64,000 nucleotides of DNA from Nitrospirales bacterium (GTDB taxonomy: Bacteria; Nitrospirota; Nitrospiria; Nitrospirales; UBA8639), in contig JAJDBM010000010.1 in assembly GCA_029261355.1 (NCBI GenBank), positions 62,001 to 126,000 of the forward strand, in the 5' to 3' direction. Every line of letters starts with the position of its first letter. Position 1 is the stretch's first letter. Positions 10,233-52,519 of the stretch are shown piece after piece. The notes beneath the pieces were generated by a model. The model saw nothing but the letters and a program-made list of their open reading frames with translations, was not told where the DNA came from and ran no database searches. The position numbers were made by a program, and so were the translations under genes.

Positions 10233-10404
10233 TTTTATACCTCCACCGCGATAAGTGAATGAAACTAAAAGGAAAATCTAAACAAGTCTGAATCTATAAT
10301 TTTACCAAGCACATACAAGGTTGTCAATTGACTGGAAAATGATAACTCATTGATATTGCAAGACTTTCCATGAAGTGAAGCTGTGCCTTTCTATCAGATA
10401 ACCA

Positions 10405-10986
10405 CTATTTGAGATCTTTCAACCACTCCTCGCGCATTTCTCGGGTAATGGGCACCTCAGCTTGATAGTGCGGATGCTCAACACTGAGAGTGCCTGGTAT
10501 TTCAAGGTTTTCCAATAGTTCACGAAATGCGAGGGTGGTTTTATACCGTATAAAGTGGACCGCGCTGATTTTGTCTTCTTTGCTATGACCAGCTTCAAAT
10601 TCAGCAAAGACCGTGTGGTCACCAATTCGAATGGCCAGGGTGTCAGAGCGATCAATCTCTTGGAATGAATTCAATAGTTCCTCAATACGTTCAGAATCAG
10701 TGATTTCAATAAAAAGAGTGGCACTCAACTCTTCAGTATCAGGAAGGAGCGCATTATAGACGTCAATCTCTTCTTGGATCTTTTCAGCGTCAAATATCCG
10801 TTCCGTGCGAATCATTTCATGAATTTGAAAAATAATGGTCTCGCGGTTTTCAAAAATTACTGTGACCAGTTCGCCAATGGCAACCCGTCGACGTTTCTTC
10901 AATGCAATAATCTTCTGGCGAATAGCAGGGCGTTGTGCTTCGTATTCAGCAGGTGATAGCAGGTCTTCTTGAGTGACTTTATTCAT
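10405..10986 (-). CDS. DUF3501 family protein
   Basis: 193 residues, mostly charged and soluble, with no signal peptide or cysteine motif. The opening KVTQEDLLSPAEYEAQR and the KRRRVAIGELVTVIFENRET segment match my recollection of DUF3501, a family of unknown function usually encoded beside rubrerythrin and a GlpC-like Fe-S protein, as here. The ATG at 10986 overlaps the stop of the Fe-S protein gene (ATGA), indicating translational coupling; a longer frame beginning inside that gene is less likely. Last gene of the perR-rubrerythrin unit. Function unknown, probably linked to peroxide defence. Confidence 0.8.
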   Translation of the reverse strand: MNKVTQEDLLSPAEYEAQRPAIRQKIIALKKRRRVAIGELVTVIFENRETIIFQIHEMIRTERIFDAEKIQEEIDVYNALLPDTEELSATLFIEITDSERIEELLNSFQEIDRSDTLAIRIGDHTVFAEFEAGHSKEDKISAVHFIRYKTTLAFRELLENLEIPGTLSVEHPHYQAEVPITREMREEWLKDLK

Positions 10987-12266: not shown

Positions 12267-12311
12267 ATGTTCCCCAATGTATCAAGTATAACGGGAGCGA
12301 ACTCAATGAAA

Positions 12312-12346
12312 ACCCCAGACAGGAACATAGGGTTTCTGTCTGGGGT
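12312..12346 (-). terminator. Intrinsic terminator downstream of rubrerythrin
   Basis: ACCCCAGACAG and CTGTCTGGGGT form an 11-bp perfect stem with a 13-base loop. Reading the reverse strand it is followed by TTTTCATT. It lies between the rubrerythrin gene and the Fe-S protein gene, so it probably makes the downstream pair a lower-level readthrough product. Confidence 0.75.
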
Positions 12347-12369
12347 ACATGCCCAATGGACGTGTGTCT

Positions 12370-12795
12370 TTATAAAGAGAGTGACTCTAACCCTTTGGTG
12401 AAGCGATTGGCATGAGACTTTTCGGCTTTCGCCAAGGTCTCAAACCATTCAGCGAGTTCCTCAAACCCTTCTTCGCGCGCAGTCTTGGCCATGCCTGGGT
12501 ACATTTGCGTGTACTCGTAGGTTTCACCTTCGATCGCTGCTTTCAGATTGGCTTCGGTATTGCCAATAGGCACGCCGGTCGCAGGGTCTCCAACTTCCTT
12601 TAAGAAGTCCAAGTGCCCAAAGGCATGTCCTGTTTCGGCTTCAGACGTATCACGAAAAAGTCCACCGACATCGGTATAGCCTTCAATATCAGCACGGCGT
12701 GCAAAATAGAGATAACGACGATTCGCTTGGGATTCACCAGCAAACGCGTCTTTTAAGTTTTGGTGACTTTTGGTTCCATCCAGACCTTTACCCAT
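12370..12795 (-). CDS. Rubrerythrin (di-iron domain only)
   Basis: 141-residue ferritin-like di-iron protein that reduces hydrogen peroxide to water. The metal ligands are visible in [14 protein letters not shown] (first helix), [11 protein letters not shown] (second), [13 protein letters not shown] (third) and [11 protein letters not shown] (fourth). The C-terminal rubredoxin domain of classic rubrerythrin is absent, so electrons must come from a separate partner, possibly the Fe-S protein encoded next. The gene lies 43 bases after the PerR-like gene and is probably controlled by it. Confidence 0.92.
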
Positions 12796-12838
12796 GTTCT
12801 TCCTCCTTTGAAAAATAATAACGTGTGGAACAAAAACT

Positions 12839-13264
12839 TTATGCCGTTTTCGACCGGCAAGCCTTACAGTACCCTCGAAATTCTACTTGGTAATCAGTGA
12901 TCGTAAACCCAGAGGGAATACCATTGGGGAATGATAATTCATTCAGCCGTTCATCCATTACATCCACAATCGATTGACAGCTAGTACAGATCAGATGATG
13001 ATGAGGGGAAAGATTCCCATCATACCGCGCACGATCATGCCCGACATTCACTTCACGAATGAGCCCAGCCTTCTGTAATACCCCCAATGTATAATAGACC
13101 GTATTTTGCGAAATCATCGGATAGTCCTGAGAGACCAGTTGATACAGGTCGTCAGCCGTCGGATGGCTCGTCGTCTCCACCAAGGCTGTATAAATGGCCG
13201 TACGTTGAGGCGTATTCTTTAATCCGTGGTCTTTGAAGCGCTGTTGGATAGTTTCAGTGATCAT
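12839..13264 (-). CDS. perR: Fur-family transcriptional regulator, PerR-like
   Basis: Metal-dependent repressor of 141 residues. The winged helix includes LKNTPQRTAIYTAL and SQNTVYYTLGVL. Regulatory metal ligands are suggested by SHPTADDL (His37 region) and SPHHHLICTSC, and the structural zinc by CTSC and CKAC. The PerR subgroup is suggested by the neighbouring rubrerythrin gene and by a near-perfect operator overlapping the promoter (13282-13298). It probably represses itself, rubrerythrin and the two genes beyond, releasing them when its iron-bound form is oxidised by peroxide. Confidence 0.88.
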   Translation of the reverse strand: MITETIQQRFKDHGLKNTPQRTAIYTALVETTSHPTADDLYQLVSQDYPMISQNTVYYTLGVLQKAGLIREVNVGHDRARYDGNLSPHHHLICTSCQSIVDVMDERLNELSFPNGIPSGFTITDYQVEFRGYCKACRSKTA

Positions 13265-13281
13265 TTTTATGTAGTTCTCTT

Positions 13282-13298
13282 TTAGGAATCATTACTAA
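13282..13298. promoter_or_regulatory. Palindromic PerR/Fur-type operator upstream of perR
   Basis: TTAGGAATCATTACTAA is a 17-base palindrome: the half-sites TTAGnAAT and ATTnCTAA match perfectly on either side of a central C. It closely resembles the known PerR box (TTAnAATnATTnTAA form). It ends 17 bases upstream of the perR start codon, where a repressor would block transcription, so autoregulation is likely. Confidence 0.7.
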
Positions 13299-13582
13299 CT
13301 AGCAAAATGTTGTGAGGGGGTCAAGTGAAAAAGGGGACGTTACCTTTTATGTGACATTATTTATGTATTATGGCAATTTTCAGTCGTGCTCCCCTCACAT
13401 TTCGCACTTTTTTGCTGAGTCAAGGTTTTAGGTGTTCATATTTAACTGGTAAGGACTGTGTGTCTTAGCGCACGCATAATCCGTTTCTTTTTCTATCCTT
13501 GAGCTCCTCCTCAAGACCAGAAGGCAGAAGGAATTTTTTTCAGGATAACAAGATACGAAATGCTAGTGACGAGATAAGTCTT
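13299..13582. other. Intergenic region between perR and the SNF transporter gene
   Basis: 284 bases with no credible gene. It carries the promoter side of perR and the 5' neighbourhood of nothing else, because the transporter gene ends here. I see short AT-rich stretches but no clear terminator, riboswitch or small-RNA signature. Confidence 0.35.
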
Positions 13583-14950
13583 TTAGAGGATGCCAACAGA
13601 TTTGAGTAAGACAATGAACACAGCCACTGGGGCGACGTAGCGAACAAGCGTTTGCCAGATGAGGTAGGCGGTGGGGTGTTGGATGTTGAGTTCGGACTTC
13701 GTCAGTTCGACTTTCATGAGCCATCCGGCGAACACGGCGATTAATATTCCGCCAAGCGGAAGCATGATATTTGACGTGATGAAATCAAGGAGTTCAAAGA
13801 AGTTCAGACCAAAGAGTTTGGAGTCTTCCCAAATATTAAACGAAAACACTGTGCCGAGCCCGAGCAGCCATGTGGCGATCCCAGCCCACAATGCGGCGCT
13901 TTTCCGTGACATGTCATAGGTTTCGATCATCCAGGTGACCATGGGTTCGATGAGCGAAATGGAGGAGGTCCAAGCGGCGACCAAGAGCAGAATGAAAAAG
14001 AGCGAGCCGAAGGCCATGCCGCCCGTCATGTTGCCAAAGGCCACAGGGAGTGTTTGAAAAATTAAGCCTGGCCCAGAACCGGGTTCCATGCCATTGGCAA
14101 AGACAATAGGAAAGATGGCCATACCCGCAAGGAGGGCAACCCCTGTATCGGCCAACGCAATGGCCACCGAGGTACTCGCGATCGAAGTGTCCTTAGGCAC
14201 ATACGAGCCATAAATCATGATCGTCCCCATGCCGAGGCTCAAGCTGAAAAAAGCTTGTCCCATGGCTGTGAGCATGCTGGCTCCAGTGAGTTTGCTGAAG
14301 TCTGGTGTGAACAGAAATTCTAAGCCTTTTCCAAAAAATCCCGTCGTCATGCTGTAGCCCACCATCAGGAGTAAGAGCGCAAACAAGGTCGGCATCAAAT
14401 ACTGTACGGCTTTTTCTAACCCTCCCTTGACCCCACCAGCCACGATGCTCATGGTGATGACCATAAAGATGGTATGCCAGAGGAACAACGTCCCTGGGCT
14501 GGCCACAAATTCGGCAAACGTGGAGGCAGCCATCTCTCCGGTGGCACCACTAAATGTGCCAATCACTGACTTGAAGATATAGGCTAAGGTCCATCCACCA
14601 ATTACACTGTAATAGGAGAGGATTAATACGCCCGCGATCGTGCCGGACCACCCAATGATCTGCCACCATGGACTGGCTTTTGTTTCATTGGCCAGTGCGC
14701 GCATAGAGTTGATGGGGGTTGAACGTCCCCGACGACCAAGTAAAATCTCTGACATCATCAACGGAATGCCGAGCGCCGCAACACACACGATATAGATGAG
14801 GACAAAGGCGCTTCCCCCGTTTTCACCAGTGAGATAGGGGAATTTCCAAATGTTCCCTAGGCCAACGGCAGCGCCAGTTGCGGCGAGGATAAATGTCCAG
14901 CGTGAGGACCACTGGCCATGCATGGATTGTTTTGGAAGGTGTGCTGCCAT
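13583..14950 (-). CDS. Sodium:neurotransmitter symporter (SNF/NSS, LeuT-like) family transporter
   Basis: 455 residues with about 11 membrane helices. The NSS signature lies at the N-terminus: SSRWTFILAATGAAVGLGNI followed by WKFPY and an ENGGSAF stretch, which form the sodium and substrate sites in LeuT. These proteins import amino acids or related solutes with Na+. Bacterial members often have 11 rather than 12 helices, which fits. The substrate cannot be read from the sequence. The gene stands alone, with 374 bases of non-coding DNA upstream. Confidence 0.9.
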   Translation of the reverse strand: MAAHLPKQSMHGQWSSRWTFILAATGAAVGLGNIWKFPYLTGENGGSAFVLIYIVCVAALGIPLMMSEILLGRRGRSTPINSMRALANETKASPWWQIIGWSGTIAGVLILSYYSVIGGWTLAYIFKSVIGTFSGATGEMAASTFAEFVASPGTLFLWHTIFMVITMSIVAGGVKGGLEKAVQYLMPTLFALLLLMVGYSMTTGFFGKGLEFLFTPDFSKLTGASMLTAMGQAFFSLSLGMGTIMIYGSYVPKDTSIASTSVAIALADTGVALLAGMAIFPIVFANGMEPGSGPGLIFQTLPVAFGNMTGGMAFGSLFFILLLVAAWTSSISLIEPMVTWMIETYDMSRKSAALWAGIATWLLGLGTVFSFNIWEDSKLFGLNFFELLDFITSNIMLPLGGILIAVFAGWLMKVELTKSELNIQHPTAYLIWQTLVRYVAPVAVFIVLLKSVGIL

Positions 14951-15324
14951 AGAAGGGTGTTAGGGGGTTAGCGAGTCTACTTCATGAGAAGTCGTGGTGC
15001 TTGGATACGATAGACCTTAAGGCCACCCATCACTGATAGCCCATCTCTTATGGGAGAATTTTTCATATTGATGTCGGCATTGAAAGGTATCCAAGTATCA
15101 TCGCGACATGACCATTTTTGAAACATTGGAAATAAACTGAATCGGCTATATCCAGCGGAGTGTACCGAGCGCTCTTCGGTGTTTCAAGGGTTTTTCCTTA
15201 TGATTCAGGTTGATGGGAGTCATTGGATTGATTAACGACTTGCTTACTTTGAGCAACCTCATTATATTCAAATGCTTAGTGAAACCCCTAAGATCTCTAC
15301 CTGATTTATACAATACGGTGTTCT
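14951..15324. other. Divergent intergenic region before the ThyX-like gene
   Basis: 374 bases between divergently transcribed genes, so promoters for both must lie here. Small hairpins are visible (CCCAT/ATGGG near 15040-15055; ACCGA/TCGGT near 15167-15183), but nothing matches a known regulatory RNA or operator and no credible gene was found. Confidence 0.35.
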
Positions 15325-40113: not shown

Positions 40114-40665
40114 ATGAAGCAGAGTCGAAATGTAAGGAATGCGTTGTTAGTTGGATTATCCGTTGCTGGCTTAACCCTCACGGCCTGCGGAGGAGCGGAT
40201 GCACCTCCTAAGCCACCACCAGCTCCTCCTGCAGAATATGCCGACAAGCATATGCCTGCTGGCCATTGGGGGAATGCAGATATCATTGCTGAAGGAAAGG
40301 CGATATACACAGGTCAGCAAAATATTGATGTTAATTGTGCGAGTTGTCATGGAAAGAATGGGAAGCCTGTGAAGGCTGGAGCCCGTGATTTTAGGCAGAC
40401 AGAGCATATGACACTCTTCTCTGATGCTCAATGGTTTTGGCGGGTATCTGAAGGAGTCAAGGGTACAAAGATGAAAGCATGGAAGAGTAAGCTTTCTGAA
40501 GATGAAATTTGGAAAGTGATTGCCTTTGAAGCTTCGTTTGGGTTGAAGGGCAAGGAATACGACGTTGCGGCCAAGAAGTGGGTTGATCAAGGAACGGCAG
40601 GGAAGTCTGGAGCGCCAGCAGGAGAGGCTCCAGTAGAAGAGGCTGCAGGTGAGCCGAAGGGGTAA
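40114..40665 (+). CDS. Monohaem c-type cytochrome lipoprotein
   Basis: 183 residues from the ATG at 40114, which follows GAGGGGG. The signal ends in a lipobox (LTLTAC), so it should be lipid-anchored in the periplasm. A proline-rich linker precedes one haem-c site, NCASCHGKNG, and the likely axial Met is in TKMKAWKSKLSE. The Ala/Gly/Pro/Glu-rich C-terminal tail is low complexity. First gene of the respiratory locus; probably an electron carrier for the complex encoded behind it. Confidence 0.88.
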   Translation: MKQSRNVRNALLVGLSVAGLTLTACGGADAPPKPPPAPPAEYADKHMPAGHWGNADIIAEGKAIYTGQQNIDVNCASCHGKNGKPVKAGARDFRQTEHMTLFSDAQWFWRVSEGVKGTKMKAWKSKLSEDEIWKVIAFEASFGLKGKEYDVAAKKWVDQGTAGKSGAPAGEAPVEEAAGEPKG

Positions 40666-40715
40666 GCGTCTGAATGTTAGTCAATCGAACAAGATCCTGA
40701 TTAGATCACGGGGAC

Positions 40716-42458
40716 ATGAAAGCTAAAGAAGGAGGGCTACGACCCTTGGAAAAACTGAGTCGAAGCTTATTAATGTTGACAGGCCTTGTGTTGGCAAGCG
40801 CGGCTTCTGCGTATGGGCAGATCCCTGACGCTCCGATTGTTGATTTACCGCTTGTCGGTAATAGGACCGGCGTATGGGTCGTGGCTCAGTTGCATATATT
40901 GTTTGCCGCATTTATCCTTGGTGCGCCAATTTTTGCGGTAGTTTCTGAGTGGTTAGGGTATAAAAATAATGATCCAAAGTATGATCGCCTAGCAAAAGAG
41001 GTGATCAAGGTTACAGTCATCTTGTATAGTATGACTGCTCTTACTGGTGGGTTGTTTATTTTTATGTTGTTAGGAACCTATCCTGACTTCACGACCTGGC
41101 TCATCAAGCATTTTTTCTTGGTTTTTGCTGTCATTTATCCTCTCCTCTTTATCGCGGAAACAATCATTCTCTATACCTACTTTTATTCATGGGACACCAT
41201 GAAGGGGAGTAAAAAGGCCAGGCATATTGCTTTGGGGGTCTTATTGAATGTAGTGGGGACGACCACCCTTTTTGTGATTGATGGTCCAACGGCATTTATG
41301 AATACTCCAGCAAAGGCTGCTGAGGGTATGTCGCTTGTAGAATTTGTTCAGACAGCTGGGCTTTGGGATAAAATTGCCAATTATAGTTGGATGCCACTAA
41401 ATCTTCATCGCCTTGTGGGGAATGTTACTTTTGGTGGTTTCATTGCTGGGCTAATTGCTGCCTATATGTACATGCGGTCTCGTACTGATGAGGAGCGAGC
41501 CTATTATGATTGGATGGGATTTATTGGGAACCTGATAGGGGTGGGGGCACTCTTATTATTACCATTCATGGGTTACTTATTAGCCTATGAACTTTGTGAT
41601 TATGATGCCTCTATCTGTCCTTATATGATGGCTGACCAGCTTTCGATGTTCTTTGAAATGCAGGGAGCAATGATTGGACTCATTTTCCTTGCGAGCAACT
41701 ATTATATTTGGCTTAGTATGAAGCGAATAGATGGTGTTGAGAAAGTTCGAATATCTGGTTTGGTCATGATCGCCGTATTGATTATGCCAGTAGTAATGGG
41801 AATTGCCTGGAAAATGTTCCCACCACCAGAGTGGCAATCCCTAATTTTCTTAGCAGCGCTTGTAGTCTTGCCGCCAGTGCTTAGTAAGCTGCCAGGTTTA
41901 AGGTTTACGGTATCAGCATTTACCATGATCAAGGTAGGATTTTTGATGATTGTCGTATCCGATGCTATTTGGATGACGCCACATGGATTTGTTGCAACGC
42001 AAGGTGCGGCAACTCATGATCTGGAGTTGCCAGAGTGGGCTCAGGAGTTAGCATTAATGCCTGCTAAAAATGCAGCAGCCTTTACTTTGGTATTTCTCAC
42101 AATCGTTAACTATATTTTGTACAACAGAGCAATCCGCCTAGGGAGTATTTCATGGGGTAAAATTGATTTTGCCTCACAATTTGTCCTGATATTTTTAGCC
42201 TTCAGTGCTATTTGGACAATGGGTCTGATGGGGACAGTTCGTTCCCTGACAAGAAAGTACTTCCATGTATATAATTTGTATCCAGACTTTACGCCTGAAG
42301 CATTTACCCCGACATTGGCCTACTCGGCATGGTGGGTGACTGCGTGTACGGTTGTATTCTTTGCAGTGGTGAGCTTTGCTATCATGGTTACGCTACGTAC
42401 TACAAAAGAAAAAACTCCTCCTACTCAAGGAGTTCCCCTTCCGGAGGGGGCGAAGTAA
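40716..42458 (+). CDS. Cytochrome bd-like oxidase subunit I (CydA family), first copy
   Basis: 580 residues and many membrane helices. Resemblance to CydA: a His in VVAQLHILFAAFILG (b595 ligand position), a membrane Glu in FIAETIILYTYFYSWD, and a His in NLHRLVGNVTFGG (b558 position). I could not find the quinol-binding GRxPW loop, and no CydB follows. An N-terminal hydrophobic stretch ends in SASAYGQ. A TTG at 40746 with AAGGAGG upstream is an alternative start. In nitrite oxidisers such bd-like proteins are proposed to act in cytochrome c-linked respiration; the role here is inferred. Confidence 0.82.
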   Translation: MKAKEGGLRPLEKLSRSLLMLTGLVLASAASAYGQIPDAPIVDLPLVGNRTGVWVVAQLHILFAAFILGAPIFAVVSEWLGYKNNDPKYDRLAKEVIKVTVILYSMTALTGGLFIFMLLGTYPDFTTWLIKHFFLVFAVIYPLLFIAETIILYTYFYSWDTMKGSKKARHIALGVLLNVVGTTTLFVIDGPTAFMNTPAKAAEGMSLVEFVQTAGLWDKIANYSWMPLNLHRLVGNVTFGGFIAGLIAAYMYMRSRTDEERAYYDWMGFIGNLIGVGALLLLPFMGYLLAYELCDYDASICPYMMADQLSMFFEMQGAMIGLIFLASNYYIWLSMKRIDGVEKVRISGLVMIAVLIMPVVMGIAWKMFPPPEWQSLIFLAALVVLPPVLSKLPGLRFTVSAFTMIKVGFLMIVVSDAIWMTPHGFVATQGAATHDLELPEWAQELALMPAKNAAAFTLVFLTIVNYILYNRAIRLGSISWGKIDFASQFVLIFLAFSAIWTMGLMGTVRSLTRKYFHVYNLYPDFTPEAFTPTLAYSAWWVTACTVVFFAVVSFAIMVTLRTTKEKTPPTQGVPLPEGAK

Positions 42459-42484
42459 CCGCTTTAGAAATAAGGGAGATGTGA

Positions 42485-43294
42485 ATGGCTCAGCAAAGTC
42501 TAATGGGTAACATAATGAAAAAGGGAATTATCGGGGTAATCATTGGTGCGATCCTTGTGGTGTTCGCCAAGATGACGCATTTCCCATTTGTCTTCCAGGT
42601 GATGTTTTTTATGTATGCCATGTTAGGGGCTTTCGTCTTTATCTTGCTGGATGCACCAACGATGAAGCGCTTGGAGGGACCAAAGGCGGCGATTGCATTG
42701 GTTGTGTTTTATGTGATTCTATCTTTGGTGTTCACTGGGGGGGCAAGCGGTCTTCCCCAATACGATCCAGAGATTGAAAAGGGGAAGATTGATAAGATTC
42801 TCAAAAGACGAAAAGCAATGACGGAGCAAGGTAAAGCTGAAGTGCTCATTGCGCGCGTGAAGGCACTTGATGAGCGAGCTATCGCGATCGACAAAAAACT
42901 CAATTCGCTAGGTGCGGACAAAATTGAAGTCGTAGAGGAAGTAGGTTCAGTGGCTACTTCTGCAGGTGGCGATGATATTCTAGCTTTAGGAAAAGAGCAG
43001 TGGGAATTACAGGAATGTTATAACTGCCATAAGTTAGGTGGTGAAGGTGGTAAGAAACGTGGGCCAATCATGGATAATATAGGAAGTCTGATGACGCCTG
43101 CTCAACTCCGTGAAAAAATCCTATATCCTAAGACTTGGATGGCTGAAGGATTTGATAAGCAGTATAAAAAAGGCAAGATGCCAGATAAGTATAAAGATTT
43201 GATGTTTGATGAGGAAATTGATGTACTCGTTGCATTTCTTGCATCACTAAAAGATACATCTGTTGACACACCTAAGCCCATAAAGATGAATTAA
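42485..43294 (+). CDS. Membrane-anchored monohaem cytochrome c
   Basis: 269 residues. Three hydrophobic segments near the N-terminus (residues about 12-85) anchor the protein. A charged, Lys/Glu-rich helical region follows (ILKRRKAMTEQGKAEVLIAR). The C-terminal cytochrome domain has one haem-c site, QECYNCHKLGG, and a candidate axial Met in KKGKMPDKYKDL. GGGAG precedes the ATG. It lies between the first bd-like subunit and the Rieske gene and probably links those components electronically. Confidence 0.85.
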   Translation: MAQQSLMGNIMKKGIIGVIIGAILVVFAKMTHFPFVFQVMFFMYAMLGAFVFILLDAPTMKRLEGPKAAIALVVFYVILSLVFTGGASGLPQYDPEIEKGKIDKILKRRKAMTEQGKAEVLIARVKALDERAIAIDKKLNSLGADKIEVVEEVGSVATSAGGDDILALGKEQWELQECYNCHKLGGEGGKKRGPIMDNIGSLMTPAQLREKILYPKTWMAEGFDKQYKKGKMPDKYKDLMFDEEIDVLVAFLASLKDTSVDTPKPIKMN

Positions 43295-43319
43295 ACTGTG
43301 ATTTTCTAGGTTCTTTGCT

Positions 43320-44264
43320 ATGCAACCAAAATTAGCCGCAAAAGCAGTCTGTTCTAATGGAGAAATCGGTAAGGTATCCAAAGTAATTATGGATCCTATC
43401 TCGCATGAGGTAAGCCATGTCGTTGTCCAGGAGAATGCACGCCAAAAATTAGACCGGGCTATACCAATTGGAGAGGTTCAGGAAATAGTAAGTGAAGAAG
43501 AGATTGTTCTTAAGTGTTCAGTTTCAGAATTTGTGCAGTTTCCCCTGCTGAACCGAGACCATTATGTTACGACTCATGAAGTTGAGATTGCTCATCTTGA
43601 AGATAATATTCACGTTACGCCTGGAGAGGTGCTTGTTCCCCTACCCTGTTTAGAACGCGATGTGCCACGCAGAACGTTCTTTAATAATATGACCCATGCA
43701 ATTGGGGCATTAATCGCACTTCCGTTAGCATTTCCAGTCTTAAAGTACCTTATGAAGCCGATGTATAAGCCATTTGACAATGCATGGTTTTCTGTTGGGA
43801 ATGAAAAAAAAATAACGAAAGAAAATATTGGTTTTCAATTTAAGTTTACTCGTGGCTTTAAAGAAGCTTTTATGCCTGAGCAACAAATTGAAAAAAATAT
43901 TTGGATCGTAAGGGCTACTCCAGAAGTGAAAAAAGAAGTCTACTCGGGAAAAGATAGAAAGTTTTACGATAATAAAGGTGATCTACTTTGGGTGAATAAA
44001 GCTAACTCACCATTGATTGGTTTTTCTGGGAAATGCCCTCATCTTGGGTGTGGCTACAAATGGAGAAGAACTAAAAGTAACCCAGATGGTGTCTTTATTT
44101 GTCCTTGTCACCTTAGTCTATATGATGAGTCTGGCAAGGTTATTGATGGGCCTGCGCCTAGGGGACTTGATATCCTACCATTAGAGGTTAATGCAGCTGG
44201 AGAAATACGAATCATTGATGTCGAATATAAAGCTGGTGTTAAAGACCAAATCCGCCTTTTGTAA
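43320..44264 (+). CDS. Rieske iron-sulfur protein with N-terminal PRC-barrel domain
   Basis: 314 residues. The first 80 or so resemble a PRC-barrel (SNGEIGKVSKVIMDPISHEV), normally a small cytoplasmic or ribosome-associated beta domain. A membrane helix lies near residues 127-145. The C-terminal domain is a Rieske [2Fe-2S] protein with CPHLGCGYKW and CPCHLSLYD as ligand boxes, followed by the PRGLDILP loop. It is the Rieske subunit for the adjacent cytochrome b. The PRC-barrel fusion is unusual and should place that domain on the cytoplasmic side. Confidence 0.87.
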   Translation: MQPKLAAKAVCSNGEIGKVSKVIMDPISHEVSHVVVQENARQKLDRAIPIGEVQEIVSEEEIVLKCSVSEFVQFPLLNRDHYVTTHEVEIAHLEDNIHVTPGEVLVPLPCLERDVPRRTFFNNMTHAIGALIALPLAFPVLKYLMKPMYKPFDNAWFSVGNEKKITKENIGFQFKFTRGFKEAFMPEQQIEKNIWIVRATPEVKKEVYSGKDRKFYDNKGDLLWVNKANSPLIGFSGKCPHLGCGYKWRRTKSNPDGVFICPCHLSLYDESGKVIDGPAPRGLDILPLEVNAAGEIRIIDVEYKAGVKDQIRLL

Positions 44265-44282
44265 CTCTATAGTCACACTTCC

Positions 44283-45395
44283 ATGAATAATCAGCCACCT
44301 ACCACTAACGAACCTAATGCGCTTGAAAAAGTCGTTGACTTTGTTGACGAACGTGTTGGATTAAAAACATTACAGGCAAAAATGCTCAATGAACCCGTAC
44401 CTGGTGGTTCACGCTGGGCATATGCGTTTGGTTCAGTTCTTCTTTTCATATTTATCCTACAGGTGGTAACTGGCATATTGTTAATGTTTTATTATGTGCC
44501 TAGTACCGATCACGCCTACGACAGTACCCAATATATTATTCATGAAGTGGAATATGGATGGTTTTTGCTCAGCTACCATTTTTGGGGATCCTCCGCAATG
44601 GTTGTGATGGTTTTCGCACATATGTCGCAGGTTTTTTTATGGGGTGCATACAAGAAACCTCGTGAGCTTATATGGTTAGTGGGTTTAGCGCTCTTTGGCA
44701 TTGTGATGGCTTTTGGTTTTACTGGGTATCTGCTTCCATGGGATCAACGTGCTTATTGGGCAACGGTGGTTGGTGTAGAGATCATGGATAAAACGCCACT
44801 AATTGGTGATTTTATGGCTCGCTTCCTTAAGGGAGGACCCACGCCAGGTCAAATGACGTTAAGTCGATTTTTTGTGATCCATGTCATGGTTTTGCCAGCT
44901 GGTTTAATGGCGTTAGCCGGGCTTCACATATTTTTATTTAGGAAGGCTGGTCCTGCTGGTCCTTTTCGTGGCACATCCGCAGAGCTTAAAGCTAAGACTG
45001 ATTATTTCTTCCCACGACAAATATGGAAAGACATCGTGGCAATGGCCAGTGTGTTTCTTATTATTTGCAGTTTAGCATTTATAGAGCCAGTAGTATTATT
45101 AGAGCAAGCGACTCCGGATCCAGGTGATTATCATCCTGAGCCTGAATGGTACTTCCTTTTCCTCTTTCAACTCTTGCGACTTAAGATGTTTGGTGGAGAG
45201 TTTGGCCAATTCTTGGGGGCAATTGCCATTCCTGGAGCCTTCATGGGCCTGCTTGCGGCGCTACCTTTTATTGATACGAACCCAGAGCGAAATATTTTTA
45301 AACGTCCTGCATCCCTTGTGTCTTGGATTGTCATTATGGTCGGAATTCTTCTCTTTACGGTTTCTGCAATTTTGAATAGAGAGTTTTTGCACTAA
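44283..45395 (+). CDS. Cytochrome b (fused b6/subunit IV type)
   Basis: 370 residues carrying both halves of the bc/b6f core in one chain. Two haem-ligand pairs are visible: SYHFWGSSAMVVMVFAHM, with 13 residues between the His, and IHVMVLPAGLMALAGLH, with 14, the spacing typical of b6. The Qo-site PEWY motif is in HPEPEWYFLFLFQLL (about residue 286). Ends with LNREFLH. It forms, with the Rieske protein, a quinol-oxidising module. There is no clear ribosome site; the gene starts 18 bases after the Rieske gene. Confidence 0.92.
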   Translation: MNNQPPTTNEPNALEKVVDFVDERVGLKTLQAKMLNEPVPGGSRWAYAFGSVLLFIFILQVVTGILLMFYYVPSTDHAYDSTQYIIHEVEYGWFLLSYHFWGSSAMVVMVFAHMSQVFLWGAYKKPRELIWLVGLALFGIVMAFGFTGYLLPWDQRAYWATVVGVEIMDKTPLIGDFMARFLKGGPTPGQMTLSRFFVIHVMVLPAGLMALAGLHIFLFRKAGPAGPFRGTSAELKAKTDYFFPRQIWKDIVAMASVFLIICSLAFIEPVVLLEQATPDPGDYHPEPEWYFLFLFQLLRLKMFGGEFGQFLGAIAIPGAFMGLLAALPFIDTNPERNIFKRPASLVSWIVIMVGILLFTVSAILNREFLH

Positions 45396-45404
45396 ACGTC
45401 AACC

Positions 45405-46304
45405 ATGTCGAATACAAAACTTGGACTACTAGTTTCTTGGCCGACATTTTGGACAGGCTTTCCTATCAAGATGTTGATCTGTTTTATGCTGCTTGCAGGT
45501 GGGCTCCATCCATGGAGTGGGCTCGGCTTAGAGCTTTTGTTGCTCCTTTCTATTCCAATCGATATTTGGGCATTAGGCGTTTGTTCCCGTACGGTCTTTT
45601 TAGAGCGTTTAAATGTTGATTCTCAACCAGGAATTGGGTTGAGGTTATGGTGGAAATGGGCTCTACTTAGCGTTATATACCTTCCGATACTGTACATCGT
45701 TATTACTACAACTACCTCCGTTGCAAAGTCAGTGACAGCAAGTATTATTGCGACAGTAAAAGCAAGTATTTGGGAAATCCCTGTAGCAGAACAAATTTCT
45801 ATTGAGTTGGTTATGTGGGGAAGTATAGCAAGTGCTGTTCTCATTCTTTTACTAATTGGATGGATGTGGGGACTAGGTGCACTAGCTCAACGTGAAGTAT
45901 CGGCAGCTAGAAAAAAGGATGGAAATTTTGAAGAAATTGTCCATTTCTGGGATCTGTTAAGAATACCTGCAGATCAAGGTTTATTTCTTACGGCATTTAC
46001 TTTCTCAGGTGTGGTACTTGCTTTTCTTTTTTGGGGTATTTTGCCAGAGACAACCCCTCATCCACATGATGAATATGTATATTCAAATGTGTTAAAGGTA
46101 GAGCCCCCTCTAAAAGCATTAAAAGTATTAAAGAGCGCAGAAAAGGTTTTAAAAAAGGCTGAATTGACAATAGTTGAGTTGGAAAAAAACGAAGCTAAAG
46201 AGAATGCTCTAGTTAAAAAAGATGATAAGAAAAAGAAAGCTGAAGAAATAAAAGTAGAGAAAAAACCAACTACACCAAAAGAACCATCAAAGGGAGGTTC
46301 TTAG
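45405..46304 (+). CDS. Membrane protein with Lys-rich tail in the respiratory locus, unknown
   Basis: 299 residues. About four to five membrane segments lie between residues 20 and 225 (such as MLICFMLLAGGLHPWSGL, VIYLPILYIVITTTTSVA and VLILLLIGWMWGLGALAQR). The last 60 residues are Lys/Glu-rich and helical, probably cytoplasmic. No cysteine or haem motif. I do not recognise the family. Being sandwiched between cytochrome b and the second bd-like gene, it is most likely a structural subunit of the same complex. Confidence 0.75.
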   Translation: MSNTKLGLLVSWPTFWTGFPIKMLICFMLLAGGLHPWSGLGLELLLLLSIPIDIWALGVCSRTVFLERLNVDSQPGIGLRLWWKWALLSVIYLPILYIVITTTTSVAKSVTASIIATVKASIWEIPVAEQISIELVMWGSIASAVLILLLIGWMWGLGALAQREVSAARKKDGNFEEIVHFWDLLRIPADQGLFLTAFTFSGVVLAFLFWGILPETTPHPHDEYVYSNVLKVEPPLKALKVLKSAEKVLKKAELTIVELEKNEAKENALVKKDDKKKKAEEIKVEKKPTTPKEPSKGGS

Positions 46305-46324
46305 GAAATTCTGAAAGGGAAGAA

Positions 46325-46356
46325 TTTTCTCCAACTAAAAGTTGGTGAGGAGAAGG
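46325..46356 (+). promoter_or_regulatory. Hairpin overlapping the ribosome site of the second bd-like gene
   Basis: CCAACT pairs with AGTTGG around AAA, and flanking TTTTCT can pair with part of the GGAGAAGG ribosome-binding sequence just before the ATG at 46359. This would partly hide the ribosome site, so translation of the gene may be tuned relative to its neighbours. The structure is seen in sequence; an effect is inferred. Confidence 0.4.
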
Positions 46357-46358
46357 TC

Positions 46359-48224
46359 ATGAAACACTACAGCCCACTACAAATGATACGGAACTCAACA
46401 TTTCCGATTTCAGGGGTCTCACTTCTGAAGTGGGGAGGCATGCTTGTCCTTCTTCTTTTTCCTATTTTGGCATGGGCACAGGATGCAGCGACTCAGGCAA
46501 TGTCGGTCGAATACCGTGATATCCCCGGAATTGGTAGTCGTAATATAATTTGGATTGTCGCTCAGCAACACCTTTTGTTAGCAGGTTTTGTGTTAGGGGT
46601 GCCAATATTTGCTTGGATTTGTGAAATTGTTGGTTGGAAAACAAACGAACCGCGCTATGATAAGTTAGCAAAAGAATTCACTAAGCTTTTGACATCGGCC
46701 TACGCGACTACCGCCCTTTTTGGAGGAATATTACTGTTTCTTCTTATAGGGTTATATCCAAAATTAATGGCCTACCTCACTGATATATTTTTCCCTTCTT
46801 TCATCGCATACTGCATTCTTTTTATACTTGAGACCGCTACATTGTATATGTATTGGTATGGTTGGGATGCGATGCAGGGTAGAAAAAAGGCATTACATAT
46901 ATTTCTAGGTCTCCTTCTGAATTTGTTTGCACTTGGTATTATGATTGTTCCGAATGCATGGGCTACTTTCCAAGCAAGTCCGGTCGTGATTGCAGATGGA
47001 ACCGCTATTGAGCGTGCATGGTCAGCAATGCAGAATCCTACATGGTGGCCAGTAAACATTCACAGATTAATTGCGAATGTAGTGCTTGGTGGATTTATCT
47101 GTGGTGCATATGCCGGAGTTCGATATTTACTTGCGGTGACCAAGGAAGAAAAAGAACATTATGACTGGATGGGATATGTAGGTAACTTTATTGGGGTTTT
47201 CGGCATGTTGCCGCTGCCCTTTGCTGGATACTGGCTCATGAGAGAGATTTATCAGTACAACCAGCAAATGGGAATTACCCTTATGGGAGGATTTCTAGCG
47301 TGGTTATTTATCCTTCAAGCCATGCTAATAGGAGTATTATTCCTAGGTGCAAACTATTATTTTTGGCTAGGAATTGCACACAGGATACCTGGGTCTGAAG
47401 GTCAATATAAAAAGCCTATTATGGCTATGTTGATTGTACTCTTAGCCTGTCTAGCAGTTTGGATGACTCCCCATTCCTTAGTCGCAAGCTTAGCTGAAGC
47501 TCAAAAAATGGGAGGAACTCATCACCCTTTGTTGGGCGTCTTTGGGGTGATGTCTGCAAAAATGACTGTTTCCAATCTCATGGTTTTAGTTACGTTTATG
47601 AGTTTTATCATGTATTGGCGAGCAGGGAAGGTTGAGACTGCTGGGTGGGCCAAGGCAGCGAAAGGACTGATGGGGGTTCTTTTGGTTATTGCCAGTGTGG
47701 CTGTCATCGGTCTTGGAATATGGGGGTATTTTGTCCCTGCGATTATTCGGATTAATTATTTCTCCGTTGCACAAGTATTGATTGTTCTCTTCATCATGAT
47801 TACTTTTACGCCCCTTACGGCCTTACTGATGAAAAGTGCAAAGACCACAACAGAAATGGTTTGGGGTCAAATGCCGGTTAGGGCTGGATATAGCTTGGTC
47901 CTTAATGCAGTGATGGTCATATTACTTATGTCCCTTATGGGCTACGCTAGATCGTCGTCTCGCGTTCATTGGCACATTTATGGAGTGATGCGAGATACAT
48001 CCGAATACGCCTATTCACCTGCACTTGGCTATGCAGCAGCATTTATGTCACTCAATACATTTGTCTTTTGCTTATTGGCTGCGTTTATATTCTGGGTTGC
48101 TACATTGGGTGACAAAGCTAAAAGCCAACCTCCAAAAGACGAGCCGGTAAAAGTTCCACCTATGGGGAGTAGCACTCCAGCCATGGCTGGAGGGGCACCA
48201 ACTTCAGAAGAAACTAGAAAATGA
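46359..48224 (+). CDS. Cytochrome bd-like oxidase subunit I (CydA family), second copy
   Basis: 621 residues and many helices, clearly paralogous to the protein at 40716-42458. Equivalent residues are the His in VAQQHLLLAGFVLG, the Glu in FILETATLYMYWYGWD and the His in NIHRLIANVVLGG, with WMTPHSLVASLAEAQ near the middle. It also has an export-like N-terminus (PILAWAQDA), lacks the GRxPW quinol loop and has no CydB partner. Two such subunits in one locus suggest a heterodimer of CydA-type proteins or two functional modules. GGAGAAGG precedes the ATG. Confidence 0.82.
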   Translation: MKHYSPLQMIRNSTFPISGVSLLKWGGMLVLLLFPILAWAQDAATQAMSVEYRDIPGIGSRNIIWIVAQQHLLLAGFVLGVPIFAWICEIVGWKTNEPRYDKLAKEFTKLLTSAYATTALFGGILLFLLIGLYPKLMAYLTDIFFPSFIAYCILFILETATLYMYWYGWDAMQGRKKALHIFLGLLLNLFALGIMIVPNAWATFQASPVVIADGTAIERAWSAMQNPTWWPVNIHRLIANVVLGGFICGAYAGVRYLLAVTKEEKEHYDWMGYVGNFIGVFGMLPLPFAGYWLMREIYQYNQQMGITLMGGFLAWLFILQAMLIGVLFLGANYYFWLGIAHRIPGSEGQYKKPIMAMLIVLLACLAVWMTPHSLVASLAEAQKMGGTHHPLLGVFGVMSAKMTVSNLMVLVTFMSFIMYWRAGKVETAGWAKAAKGLMGVLLVIASVAVIGLGIWGYFVPAIIRINYFSVAQVLIVLFIMITFTPLTALLMKSAKTTTEMVWGQMPVRAGYSLVLNAVMVILLMSLMGYARSSSRVHWHIYGVMRDTSEYAYSPALGYAAAFMSLNTFVFCLLAAFIFWVATLGDKAKSQPPKDEPVKVPPMGSSTPAMAGGAPTSEETRK

Positions 48225-48270
48225 ATTACGTAAAAGTGGGGCTCAATCTTCAAATAAAGCGTGAGGCATC

Positions 48271-48924
48271 ATGAGCGAAGTTGCGTTATTACAATTACTA
48301 GGAATGAGTGTTGTTGGGTTGGGTATATGTATCCTTCTCTTTATAAAGTCAAAGTTTCTGCGTGTTTTAGGGTTCGTTATTATTGTACTTGGTTCATTCA
48401 GTCTCACAGCCCTCAGTGTTCCTCAGATGGCTTCACTTCCACCTGCCATTGAGTCATTTGATATAGCAAGTCTAAAATCACCTGATGATCTTGCGTCCCT
48501 TGGCCAAAAAATATTTTTTAGCAAAGGTCAATGTGCACTGTGTCACTCAATAGGACCTAGTCATTCAGCTCGTTGTCCTGATCTAGCTGGTATTGGGGCA
48601 AAACTTGCTCCTGAATTTATTTATGAAAGCTTAACAAATCCTCAGGCATATGTGTATTTGGATTACCGGCATGATCAATTACCAGAAGAATATCCAGCTC
48701 AAATGCCTTATATCAATAAGAATCCAATCGCATTAAGTAAGCCAGAAATTTACTCAGTTATCGCGTTTCTCCAAAAAATGAGTGGTGAACCGATAACCAT
48801 TAAAGTTGAAGATGTTTTAAACCAGGAGCCTGATACAAAAGAGCTAAAGGTTGCTGGTCATGCTAGGGCTAATGATGCTGGAAATATAATTCTAGCTCAG
48901 TCCTCAGATATGGTTGTCGAATAG
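48271..48924 (+). CDS. Membrane-anchored monohaem cytochrome c
   Basis: 217 residues. Two N-terminal hydrophobic helices (residues about 8-55) form an anchor. The haem-c site is GQCALCHSIGPS (about residues 86-97), followed by a third nearby Cys (SARCPDLAGIG), which is unusual for a simple cytochrome domain. Candidate axial Met residues occur in PAQMPYINKN. GAGG lies before the ATG. Likely a small electron-transfer subunit of the complex. Confidence 0.83.
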   Translation: MSEVALLQLLGMSVVGLGICILLFIKSKFLRVLGFVIIVLGSFSLTALSVPQMASLPPAIESFDIASLKSPDDLASLGQKIFFSKGQCALCHSIGPSHSARCPDLAGIGAKLAPEFIYESLTNPQAYVYLDYRHDQLPEEYPAQMPYINKNPIALSKPEIYSVIAFLQKMSGEPITIKVEDVLNQEPDTKELKVAGHARANDAGNIILAQSSDMVVE

Positions 48925-48946
48925 TTCATAGTAGGAGCAAGTGAAT

Positions 48947-49669
48947 ATGAAAAGCCCTCTAATTTCAGCAGCGATTCTTCTCGGAGGAGTGTTTGCCTTC
49001 TTGAAGTTTATTCTTCCTCTATTTACGGCTCCCCTACCGGCTAGTCTTATTTATCTATATTTGGCCATTGTCTTAAGTGGGATAATGATTTTTGGTACCA
49101 TGAGTGCTGGAGGACTTGAAGCATTTATGGGTCCAATTTACCGGTTTATATCTGGAGAAATTGACGGTCCTACTAAAATGGCTCGTATCCTGGTTTTAAT
49201 CGTATTCCCGTTGCTTGTCGGCTGGCAGACGTACACAAAGCTTGCGCCAAGTGAACTTCCACCTGCAGAAAACAGAACTATACACCCTGCACCGCCTGGA
49301 GAATTTGTGGGGCTAGCTAATCCTTATCCTACCAATGAGTCTACCATTCAAGAAGGTAAGGGGATCTATGCTGCGAATTGTTCTCCCTGTCATGGACCTA
49401 ATTTTGATGGCAAAGGTTCCGCAGCTCTAGGATTCAATCCACCACCTGCGAATTTTGCCGATCCTGGAACGATTGCACAACTTCAAGAATCTTACCTATT
49501 TTGGCGAATTAAAAAAGGTGGTGTGGGCTTACCAATTGAAGGAATGCCATGGAAGTCTGCTATGCCAAGGTGGGAGCATGAGTTAACAGACGAGAAGATT
49601 TGGAAAGTGATCATTGGCGAATATGATGGAGCAGGGCAGTCACCACGTACATGGGAAGAAGAAGACTAA
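48947..49669 (+). CDS. Membrane-anchored monohaem cytochrome c
   Basis: 240 residues from the ATG at 48947, which has AGGAG 9 bases upstream; the GTG at 48941 is too close to it. Two or three N-terminal hydrophobic segments anchor the protein. The haem site is AANCSPCHGPNFDGKGSAALG (about residue 150), with the axial Met probably in IEGMPWKSAMPRWEHELTD. It resembles the monohaem lipoprotein at 40114-40665 in its C-terminal layout (EKIWKVI). Confidence 0.87.
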   Translation: MKSPLISAAILLGGVFAFLKFILPLFTAPLPASLIYLYLAIVLSGIMIFGTMSAGGLEAFMGPIYRFISGEIDGPTKMARILVLIVFPLLVGWQTYTKLAPSELPPAENRTIHPAPPGEFVGLANPYPTNESTIQEGKGIYAANCSPCHGPNFDGKGSAALGFNPPPANFADPGTIAQLQESYLFWRIKKGGVGLPIEGMPWKSAMPRWEHELTDEKIWKVIIGEYDGAGQSPRTWEEED

Positions 49670-49696
49670 CTGAATTACATTGGATTGGATGATGTA

Positions 49697-50563
49697 ATGG
49701 TATATGGGCAGAAACACATGAAGGGTTTCTTTGCAAAGGCACAAGCAAGTCTTTACCTTGCTATTGCGTGTGGTTTGTTTGGTTTCGCAATCAGTCCGGT
49801 GTTGGCAAGTGATCCACCACCAGATGGAGCACCTGCGAGTGTGTCGGTACGTGTGTACCTTACTGAAGGGGTTGTCCCGCTTGACGATCCATTAGCTTCC
49901 GCATGGGATTCTGCTGCAGAGTCAGAATTTAATTTATCTCCACAAGTACATTGGCCTGATCGAATTCAGGAAACTACGGTTAAATCGGTAAAAGTCAGAG
50001 GTCTTCACGATGGACAAGCTATCGCCATATTGGTGGAATACCAAGATCCAACCGAAGATCCAGCTGATGCAGCGGCTCTTGAGTTTATGGTTGGAGATCA
50101 AAAGGCTCACTTCGCCCATGGCCAAGAGATGTTGTTGGTTGAAGGTGGTCCAGTAAATATTTGGTATTGGAAAAACGAAGTAGGAAAAGCAACAGATATG
50201 AGTGCAAAGGGTTTTAAAACCCTTAGACCACAAGATCAACAAGATGTCGCGGCTAAGGGTGTCTGGCAAGATGGTACGTGGAAAATTGTTTTTTCTAGAC
50301 CACTTCAGACTGGTGATGAGCACGACATTCAAATTAACCCCGGTAATTGGGCGAGTGTCGCCTTTGCAATGTGGGATGGGAAGCTTGTGGATGGTGCGGT
50401 GAAAGAGAAGGGGAGTCAAAAAGCTGTGTCTTCCTGGTGGAATATACGTGCAGAACCAGCCCCAGATAATTCTATATTCCTCTATGTCATTTTAGGCCTT
50501 TTGGTTGCCGCAGCATTTGAATTTGTCCTGGTTAGGAAACTTCGAAAAGGACAAGCCGTATGA
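49697..50563 (+). CDS. Ethylbenzene-dehydrogenase-gamma-like haem-binding protein
   Basis: About 288 residues. The signal peptide is LYLAIACGLFGFAISPVLAS. The mature part resembles the EB_dh/DMSO-reductase-family gamma subunit haem-b domain (VSVRVYLTEGVVPLDDPLAS, KSVKVRGLHDGQAIAILVEY, NIWYWKNEVGKATDM and WKIVFSRPLQTGDEHDI). One C-terminal membrane helix (YVILGLLVAAAFEFVLVR) anchors it. Such domains form gamma subunits of nitrite oxidoreductase-type molybdenum enzymes; its presence here suggests electron entry from such an enzyme. Starts at 49685 (TTG) or 49718 are also possible. Confidence 0.78.
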   Translation: MVYGQKHMKGFFAKAQASLYLAIACGLFGFAISPVLASDPPPDGAPASVSVRVYLTEGVVPLDDPLASAWDSAAESEFNLSPQVHWPDRIQETTVKSVKVRGLHDGQAIAILVEYQDPTEDPADAAALEFMVGDQKAHFAHGQEMLLVEGGPVNIWYWKNEVGKATDMSAKGFKTLRPQDQQDVAAKGVWQDGTWKIVFSRPLQTGDEHDIQINPGNWASVAFAMWDGKLVDGAVKEKGSQKAVSSWWNIRAEPAPDNSIFLYVILGLLVAAAFEFVLVRKLRKGQAV

Positions 50564-51600
50564 GTACTTTACAGAAATCAAAGCGTTGGTGGATATGGCC
50601 GACATTGGCCATGGTAGGGATGTTTCTTTTTATTAATGGCTGTGCCCTTTTTGAAGACGAACGAACGACTAAAGGGAAAAAGCTATATCGCCATTATTGT
50701 ATGCATTGTCACGGTGAATCTGGACGACAAGGTGAAGGGTTTAACTGGGATAGTCTCTCCAACATGGAGTTCCCACCGCCTAAGGACCTTTCTGAATCAT
50801 CAATGGGTGATTCAATCTCTGACGAAGATATTTTCAATGCGATTTCTCGAGATATGAAAGATACCTCTGATCCTATAGTTGTTGATGATATTGACTACTT
50901 TGGTGTGGCTACAATGCCTACTTTTAAGTATACGCTTTCAGAGATGGAGATATGGACGCTTGTACGTTATGTCAGGTCACTACATGGCGGTTCTTTTACA
51001 TTTGATGTTGAAGGAAAACGACAACAATTAGAGTCAGACCTGACAGCGGCTAAAGATACACTTGATTCAGCTACACAAGTATTAGAAGCTGCAGAATCAA
51101 AGCGTGACGAAGAAATTGAAGCCGCAGAAGCAGCTGCCGAGGCGGCTGGTGATGATGACTTTGAAGCAGAAGAGATCGATCTTCCTGAAGAGGAAATTGC
51201 TACTCAGGCTGCTATTAAACATGTTCAAGCTAAAAAATCGTTTGATCGATTTGCTAAACGACCAAAATTGACTATTGCACGACCAGATCTTGCTGTCACA
51301 GAAGAAGAGCATGCTGTGTTAGCAGAGAGAGGTAAGCATCTGTATATTAATAAATATGGATGTAATAGCTGTCATAGCCTTGATGGACAAGGAGGTCTTG
51401 TTGGACCAGCACTTGATAGAGCAGGATTTCGATTAAATGCAACTTGGATTTATAAATGGCTAATGTACCCTGCAGGTATTAAAAAGCATACTAGAATGCC
51501 AAATCTTGGGTTTAACGATCAGGATGCTCGTGATGTTACTGCTTACCTGAAAACATTACGTGGTCCAAAACCTGAACCAGCTCAGATTGTTCCAGAGTAG
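50560..51600 (+). CDS. Two-domain (dihaem) cytochrome c lipoprotein with charged coiled-coil linker
   Basis: 346 residues. The signal ends in a lipobox (FINGCALFED). The first haem-c site is HYCMHCHGESG (about residue 46) and the second YGCNSCHSLDG (about 272). Between them lies about 60 residues of Glu/Ala-rich helix with heptad-like character, followed by a charged linker. It overlaps the preceding stop codon (ATGA), so it is coupled. Last gene of the respiratory locus. The long linker could let the two haem domains reach different partners. Confidence 0.85.
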   Translation: MSTLQKSKRWWIWPTLAMVGMFLFINGCALFEDERTTKGKKLYRHYCMHCHGESGRQGEGFNWDSLSNMEFPPPKDLSESSMGDSISDEDIFNAISRDMKDTSDPIVVDDIDYFGVATMPTFKYTLSEMEIWTLVRYVRSLHGGSFTFDVEGKRQQLESDLTAAKDTLDSATQVLEAAESKRDEEIEAAEAAAEAAGDDDFEAEEIDLPEEEIATQAAIKHVQAKKSFDRFAKRPKLTIARPDLAVTEEEHAVLAERGKHLYINKYGCNSCHSLDGQGGLVGPALDRAGFRLNATWIYKWLMYPAGIKKHTRMPNLGFNDQDARDVTAYLKTLRGPKPEPAQIVPE

Positions 51601-51610
51601 GGAGATGCTT

Positions 51611-52519
51611 TTACAGGCTTCCTGCCCAGATAGAAATCAATAAAGCCAAGCCAACCCAGATGTGTTGCTTAAACATATTGAAATAATTCGCGGGTGAATG
51701 TTCCCGTCTAAGTTTCCATGCTTGGTATCCCAAAAATATTGTTATTAAAAACATTCCTTCATAAAAAATAGTGCTCAACCCTTTTAACAATCCCGCCAAG
51801 CTGATGAACATTATCGTCATTCCAGACGCAACTGCTACCCCAAGCCATACGTAACGACCAAATAATATCGCTGAAGATTTTACTCCAATTTTCACATCAT
51901 CTTTTCTATCCTGAAGCGCATAAATAGTATCATAAGCAATTGCCCAGCAAACCGTTGCGCTAAAGAGTAGCCACGTTGTCGTTTCAATCTGGTTTTGAAC
52001 GGCTGACCAAGCCATTACAGCCCCCCACCCAAAGGCTATCCCTAACACCAATTGTGGAATGTGGATATATCGTTTTGCGAATGGATAGATTGCTGCCAGC
52101 ACCAATGCAATCGGACTGAGTGTGATCGTTAAAGGATTTAAAAGACAGACTAATCCAAACGCTAAAAATAGGATTGACATCGCGAATATTAATGCCTGTT
52201 TTCTTGAGACAACGCCACTTGCTAAAGGGCGGTCCTGAGTACGTTGAACCTTTTGGTCTATGGATTGGTCAGCTATGTCATTGAGTATGACGCCAGCACT
52301 CCGCATTAAAAAGGCACCTGTGACGAAAACACAGACGAGTATCGGATCAGGGTTTCCTTGAGAAGCTAGTACCAGAGCCCATAGTGAGGGAAAGAGGAGT
52401 AATAACGTCCCACTTTGATTCTGTAGTCGGATGAGTTTCGTAAAAGACTTGATTTGGAATTGCCTCTGATTACTGTCCTGTGATCGGGGAGTTGAGTGCT
52501 GGTAGGAATCTTCGGCCAT
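51611..52519 (-). CDS. ubiA: UbiA-family prenyltransferase (4-hydroxybenzoate polyprenyltransferase-like)
   Basis: 302-residue intramembrane prenyltransferase attaching a polyprenyl chain to an aromatic ring in quinone synthesis. The first Asp motif is NDIADQSIDQKVQRTQDRPLA (about residue 108) and the second YALQDRKDDVKIG (about 220). Nine or so helices. The motifs match UbiA, but MenA-type or haem-type relatives cannot be excluded; the substrate is inferred. It converges with the dihaem cytochrome gene, ending 10 bases from it. Ribosome site weak. Confidence 0.88.
   Translation of the reverse strand: MAEDSYQHSTPRSQDSNQRQFQIKSFTKLIRLQNQSGTLLLLFPSLWALVLASQGNPDPILVCVFVTGAFLMRSAGVILNDIADQSIDQKVQRTQDRPLASGVVSRKQALIFAMSILFLAFGLVCLLNPLTITLSPIALVLAAIYPFAKRYIHIPQLVLGIAFGWGAVMAWSAVQNQIETTTWLLFSATVCWAIAYDTIYALQDRKDDVKIGVKSSAILFGRYVWLGVAVASGMTIMFISLAGLLKGLSTIFYEGMFLITIFLGYQAWKLRREHSPANYFNMFKQHIWVGLALLISIWAGSL

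Follow-up and report, generated by a model that had tools for sequence, protein, structure and literature searches.

The closest described counterpart of the locus analysed here is a gene cluster of Nitrospira moscoviensis, in which Mundinger et al. (2019) described CIII_1 (Rieske, cytochrome b), bd-like_1, bd-like_2 as the putative complex IV, and alt_nxrC_1, with two c-type cytochromes between bd-like_2 and alt_NxrC_1 (PMC6606698). The cluster was strongly transcribed and highly co-expressed, and a III-IV supercomplex contacting nitrite oxidoreductase via alt_NxrC_1 was proposed for it (PMC6606698). In marine and order-wide surveys the NIDE0901-like protein is called OR-N2 (PMC12342949, PMC10579370, PMC10839748), and a pairing of OR-N1 with OR-N2 as a CydAA' using cytochrome c was hypothesised (PMC12342949, PMC10839748). 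As conveyed by two later papers (PMC12342949, PMC10839748), the OR-N family of Murali et al. 2021 consists of cytochrome bd-like oxygen reductases (CydAA'). According to the published view, these take their electrons from cytochrome c and not from quinol (PMC10839748, PMC12342949), and cytochrome c is also one of the two sources, next to the Rieske/b module, that a sequence-only reading had suggested for the present locus.

Nitrospira-type bacteria are major nitrifiers, and many of them are without another visible oxygen reductase. How these nitrifiers conserve energy depends on whether an OR-N assembly works as a bd-superfamily enzyme supplied by cytochrome c and on whether it is a proton pump. 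This question is already published and testable, and was not raised by the present window. Native-complex data for Nitrospira were not found in literature searches, nor was biochemistry of any OR-N enzyme found in the literature examined.

Gene content and conservation of the locus

The window is the whole stretch of DNA that was analysed, 64,000 nucleotides in length. Eleven ORFs were found on its + strand at 40084/40114-51600, separated by intergenic gaps of -4 to 54 bp and arranged in the order c1-bd1-c2-Rieske-cytb-mem-bd2-c3-c4-EB_dh-c5 (Table 1). Protein families were assigned with Pfam/NCBIfam. All eleven same-strand genes named in the sequence-only reading are present with the families listed there, including five c-type cytochromes with six CXXCH motifs in total, a DMSO-reductase-gamma-like haem protein, and a membrane protein without a family. 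The c1 ORF opens at 40084 and has its second ATG at 40114, which is the likelier start as it yields the predicted lipoprotein signal. Because the gene order matches that of N. moscoviensis, bd2 is equated with bd-like_2, and the EB_dh protein is, by its position, the alt_nxrC_1 orthologue. A UbiA-family prenyltransferase, possibly with a role in quinone biosynthesis, lies convergent with the operon.

Table 1. Features of the locus and the neighbouring gene, with positions in the window
Feature	Position	Strand	Evidence
c1: monohaem cytochrome c, predicted lipoprotein	40114..40665	+	Cytochrome_CBB3 9.1e-11; one CXXCH; lipobox
bd1: CydA-like, 580 aa, N. moscoviensis bd-like_1 orthologue	40716..42458	+	PF01654 (Cyt_bd_oxida_I) 3.9e-16; tree, residues
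c2: monohaem cytochrome c, membrane-anchored	42485..43294	+	Cytochrom_C 1.4e-9; CXXCH
Rieske [2Fe-2S] protein, PRC-barrel-like N-terminal domain	43320..44264	+	Rieske 5.4e-8; CPHLGC/CPCH
cytb: cytochrome b, b6/subunit IV fused, PEWY	44283..45395	+	Cytochrome_B 8.9e-50; Cytochrom_B_C 4.2e-8
mem: membrane protein without family	45405..46304	+	no family match
bd2: CydA-like, 621 aa, N. moscoviensis bd-like_2 orthologue	46359..48224	+	PF01654 (Cyt_bd_oxida_I) 1.6e-19; tree, residues, gene order compared with PMC6606698
c3: monohaem cytochrome c, membrane-anchored	48271..48924	+	Cytochrom_C 1.4e-6; CXXCH
c4: monohaem cytochrome c, membrane-anchored	48941..49669	+	Cytochrome_CBB3 5.5e-10; CXXCH
EB_dh: EB_dh / DMSO-reductase-II gamma-like periplasmic haem-b protein, C-terminal anchor	49685..50563	+	PF09459 4.8e-22; TIGR03477 (DMSO_red_II_gam) 1.6e-29
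c5: dihaem cytochrome c, predicted lipoprotein	50560..51600	+	two CXXCH; two Cytochrom_C stretches; N-terminus INGC
UbiA-family prenyltransferase	51611..52519	-	Pfam 1.1e-63

The bc/b6f-type quinol module claimed for the locus was recovered with its Rieske boxes and the PEWY Qo motif of cytochrome b intact, and therefore looks functional from its motifs. The PRC domain on the Rieske protein was weak here, with an E-value of 0.056, and reached 9.5e-5, over the Pfam cut-off, in the N. moscoviensis orthologue. This fusion (PRC-barrel-like domain at 43320-43655) is unusual and apparently conserved in the clade. Outside the order only the C-terminal single-helix part of mem is conserved, and it stays with cytochrome b (L051, L165, and L167).

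A bd2-type match was present in 40 of the 40 relatives searched, with more than 70% identity in all but six; these matches were near full length and partial in one genome (G030). The exact 11-gene order occurred in 51 of 80 named loci with bd1, including N. moscoviensis NSP M-1 (L102) and an N. defluvii MAG (L124), while nearly all remaining named loci end at a contig or locus edge. Exceptions were a swap of the last two genes (L134) and an extra c1-like match (L090). The order also appeared in families f8 and f9, which lie outside the order but within the class and have only the short version of mem. The arrangement noticed in the sequence-only reading is thus not due to chance, given its conservation in these named loci and in two families outside the order. 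An assembly artefact was rejected, as the identical order was found across many independent genomes. In one single-contig MAG (G013, CP070743.1) the locus is split into two parts at approximately 0.49 and 1.63 Mb (L041 and L042) and the Rieske gene is shortened, which is either a real rearrangement or a misassembly.

The CydA-like proteins and the oxidase inventory

For the residue comparison, six canonical CydA were aligned with 23 OR-N-type sequences, namely ten bd2, six bd1, five bd3/4-like, and two bd1-like proteins found outside the class. The roles of the aligned CydA residues are established for E. coli cytochrome bd. Equivalents of H19, H186, M393, and R448 were kept in all 23 OR-N-type sequences and that of E107 in 22, among them both bd1 and bd2 of the locus. 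E99, E257, E445, and the rest of GRQPW were absent from 23 out of 23, and K252 was likewise lost in all OR-N groups examined, including bd1 and bd2 of the locus. The Q-loop columns of K252 and E257 shift slightly between two alignments, and the residues are absent in both. At the GRxPW position bd1 and bd2 read R-x-[HY]-[WF]-H. GRxPW is a CydA signature beside the haem b595 ligand and strictly not the quinol site itself. The earlier claim of a missing “quinol-binding GRxPW loop” therefore stands for the loss, which extends to K252 and E257 of the Q-loop, and fails for the function given to the motif. An analysis of Nitrospina bd-like proteins is in line with this loss of quinol residues (PMC3578206).

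New invariant histidines were found at H517/H539 in 23 of 23 OR-N-type sequences and at H423/H372 in 21 of 23, the two molybdoenzyme-linked sequences carrying R instead. The check for copper and haem ligand patterns that the sequence-only reading had proposed showed the haem ligands kept, with H186 and M393 (low-spin haem) and H19, and a bd2-type HH388-389 pair, which occurred in all ten bd2, with one or both histidines in bd3/4, and was absent from bd1. This pair may be the copper site named by earlier authors.

The phylogeny, likewise proposed, separated canonical CydA from three OR-N groups, bd1, bd2, and bd3/4, in a tree with long branches in which some deep forks are unsure. The bd1 and bd2 of the window each fell into a 100/100 clade with their N. 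moscoviensis orthologue. Accordingly labelled by tree and residues, bd1 is probably of the OR-N1 type, and bd2 is assigned to the NIDE0901/OR-N2 type from NIDE0901-like naming and gene order. Single-chain AlphaFold2 models had a mean pLDDT of 54 for bd1 (36-row alignment) and 51 for bd2 (34-row alignment), which is too poor for haem placement. No close solved structure for bd1 or bd2 was found; the alignments to 9r2g and 5doq are limited to the N-terminal half. Both proteins start with signal-peptide-like segments ending in ASAYGQ (bd1, 40716-40820) and AWAQ (bd2, 46359-46480), and canonical CydA has no such segment.

The host assembly comprises 4.63 Mb and is 99% complete. Of its four CydA-like proteins, two belong to the locus, and the other two, on contig C17, are the counterparts of the published bd-like_3/_4. 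The absence of CydB, claimed for the locus, extends to the whole genome in a profile search for PF02322 with positive controls in 10 of 14 genomes, and COX1, and with it a haem-copper oxidase, was also absent from the whole genome. Two candidates for the terminal oxidase were consequently rejected: a canonical CydAB quinol oxidase, for which both CydB and the quinol site (Q-loop K252/E257, GRxPW) are missing, and a haem-copper oxidase as complex IV. Therefore, if the host respires O2, its terminal oxidase must be an OR-N-type CydA-like protein. Among 117 near-complete genomes of the order, COX1 exceeded the cut-off in 24, with some matches weak and partial, and CydB was present in 65. Neither occurred in at least 14 further near-complete relatives, including one single-contig genome (G014).

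The two molybdopterin matches of the genome both score like NuoG (one was inspected) and did not include a recognisable NxrA. An NxrC-like fragment, neighboured by a TorD-like gene, is cut off by the end of contig C8, and contig C58 starts with a match of identical score, so that the nxr repeats were probably lost in an assembly gap. Nitrite oxidation by the host is suggested by its kinship.

The residue losses and the inventory both bear on a reading in which neither bd-like protein reduces O2 and both carry out reverse electron transport from cytochrome c to quinone in the manner of an alternative complex III. Bd-like relatives occur in anaerobic anammox bacteria, so that a CydA-like fold alone is no proof of O2 reduction, and the same role was suggested for Nitrospina bd-like proteins (PMC3578206). 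The loss of E99 and E445 points the same way. Yet this reading leaves the genome without an oxygen reductase apart from the other OR-N pair, and the known quinol-site residues are lost as well; we consider it improbable.

Separable modules and candidate electron paths

The two CydA-like proteins were each found without the other. In family f4, c1-bd1-c2-Rieske-cytb-mem-c3-c5 is intact and bd2, c4, and EB_dh are gone, as in L051 (G026, 8059-15215); COX1 and CydB were not found in this family. Relatives of bd1 in other classes adjoin a molybdopterin oxidoreductase, an Fe-S subunit, and a cytochrome c. Two such loci outside the class, L170 (6687-13441) and L171 (323-6391), carry a bd1-like CydA with these partners, the cytochrome c having two CXXCH motifs, and L171 adds a tetrahaem-like protein and a TorD-like chaperone. 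The bd1-like CydA of these loci is a candidate CydA-fold membrane partner of molybdoenzymes.

Conversely, families f7, f10, f11, and f12 have bd2 but no bd1 orthologue. The bd2 of f7 and f10 contains an additional CXXCH and is preceded by a pair of membrane proteins with 9-12 predicted helices. Such bd2 proteins of approximately 800 aa were seen in L219 (7934-10339), L220 (7156-9648), and L222 (6791-9211). The block bd2-c3-c4-EB_dh recurs in f14 and f27, is partial or shuffled in f11, and surrounds bd3 in f4. The operon thus reads as a fusion of a bc-linked module, c1-bd1-c2, with an oxidase-like module, bd2-c3-c4-EB_dh.

This separability weighs on the reading of bd1 and bd2 as one obligate CydAA' heterodimer (OR-N1 and OR-N2) and sole oxygen reductase. 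The two share an operon in the 51 named loci, their association has been hypothesised in the surveys (PMC12342949, PMC10839748), and the partner of canonical CydA is CydB, a protein of CydA fold that this genome does not have. Nevertheless, the occurrence of bd1 without bd2, in f4 and beside molybdoenzymes, and of bd2 without bd1, in f7 and f10-f12, makes an obligatory heterodimer doubtful, and four bc-module genes separate the two in every intact locus. We regard it as a real possibility, though not one to favour. The “bd-like heterodimer” of the sequence-only reading does not hold as stated; the pairing may hold in Nitrospirales and is not obligatory. A supercomplex may still form from separable modules. 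The earlier interpretation is partly supported, as regards the complex III-like quinol module, the neighbouring bd-like proteins devoid of known quinol-binding residues, the many c-type haems, the electron supply from cytochrome c, and the proposed supercomplex; it was, like the observation behind it, already in the literature.

Slightly less probable, and on balance rather unlikely, is that bd1 belongs to the bc complex as a membrane module with haem b, through which electrons pass between cytochrome c and the membrane domain, a role that its relatives seem to have for molybdoenzymes, and that bd2 alone is the oxidase. It is consistent with f4, in which bd1 stays with c1, c2, Rieske, cytochrome b, c3, and c5, with the molybdoenzyme neighbours of its nearest relatives outside the class, and with the lack in bd1 of the HH388-389 pair, but bd1 shares all three haem ligand equivalents with bd2. 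An extended form, which we put forward as unlikely, would make bd1 a non-oxidase electron-transfer subunit of CydA fold with haem b, possibly ion-translocating and permanently built onto the bc complex, recruited from a CydA-like and cytochrome c module that serves molybdoenzymes elsewhere; bd2 would then be a cytochrome c oxidase of CydA fold acting without a CydB-like partner.

Overall, the operon probably represents the combined complex III and terminal oxidase machinery of Nitrospira-type bacteria. In this scheme, Rieske and cytochrome b would form a b6f/bc-type quinol:cytochrome c oxidoreductase, and bd2 (OR-N2/bd-like_2) with c3, c4, and the NxrC-like haem-b protein would be the terminal oxidase, reducing O2 with electrons from periplasmic donors (nitrite oxidoreductase, cytochrome c) rather than from quinol. 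Electrons of nitrite would reach bd2 through nitrite oxidoreductase and then c-type haems or the NxrC-like protein. Together with c1 and c2, bd1 (OR-N1/bd-like_1) would be a partner built onto the bc module, either as the second half of a CydAA' oxidase or as an electron bridge from bc to the oxidase, and the modules may associate physically. The bc module would exchange electrons between quinone and the cytochrome pool, forwards or backwards (for CO2 fixation). During nitrite oxidation the majority of electrons would pass via bd2 to O2, and a minority would enter quinone via the reversed bc module and feed reverse electron transport. Three findings count against the scheme: E99 and E445 are missing, while a second high-spin haem would need a binding site; f4 keeps bd1 and bc while lacking bd2, COX1, and CydB; and the bd-like relatives include those of anaerobic anammox bacteria.

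Comparison with known systems

The locus shares with cytochrome b6f and bc1 the Rieske boxes and a cytochrome b with PEWY. It differs in the N-terminal PRC-barrel-like domain of its Rieske protein, the fusion of b6 and subunit IV, and the lack of a cytochrome f or c1 of the usual type. With canonical CydAB, bd1 and bd2 share the CydA fold, H19, H186, M393, and E107, whereas CydB, the Q-loop residues, GRQPW, and E445 are missing from the locus.

The likeness to the OR-N family consists of CydA homologues without CydB or a quinol site, kept haem b ligands, adjacent c-type cytochromes, and the occurrence in Nitrospirota. TO_1 and TO_2 of Ca. Manganitrophaceae (PMC9040806) resemble the locus in a bd2-like protein, c-type cytochromes, and a periplasmic haem-b protein. 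Loci of the TO_2 type can be recognised in f7 and f10, with two MrpD-like pumps and no bd1; their membrane-protein pair appears to match the TO_2 pumps, the MrpD identity being taken from PMC9040806.

N. moscoviensis NSP M-1 is the closest, with the same 11 genes in the same order and identities of 72% for bd1 and 79% for bd2. Within the locus the two differ only by sequence divergence (c5 49%, mem 40%), but N. moscoviensis has a canonical CydAB and the genome of the window does not. The 11-gene operon and the supercomplex idea were thus already published in 2019, and the locus is not a new kind of system. Added here are the separability of the modules and a genome without any other oxidase class (no COX1, no CydB).
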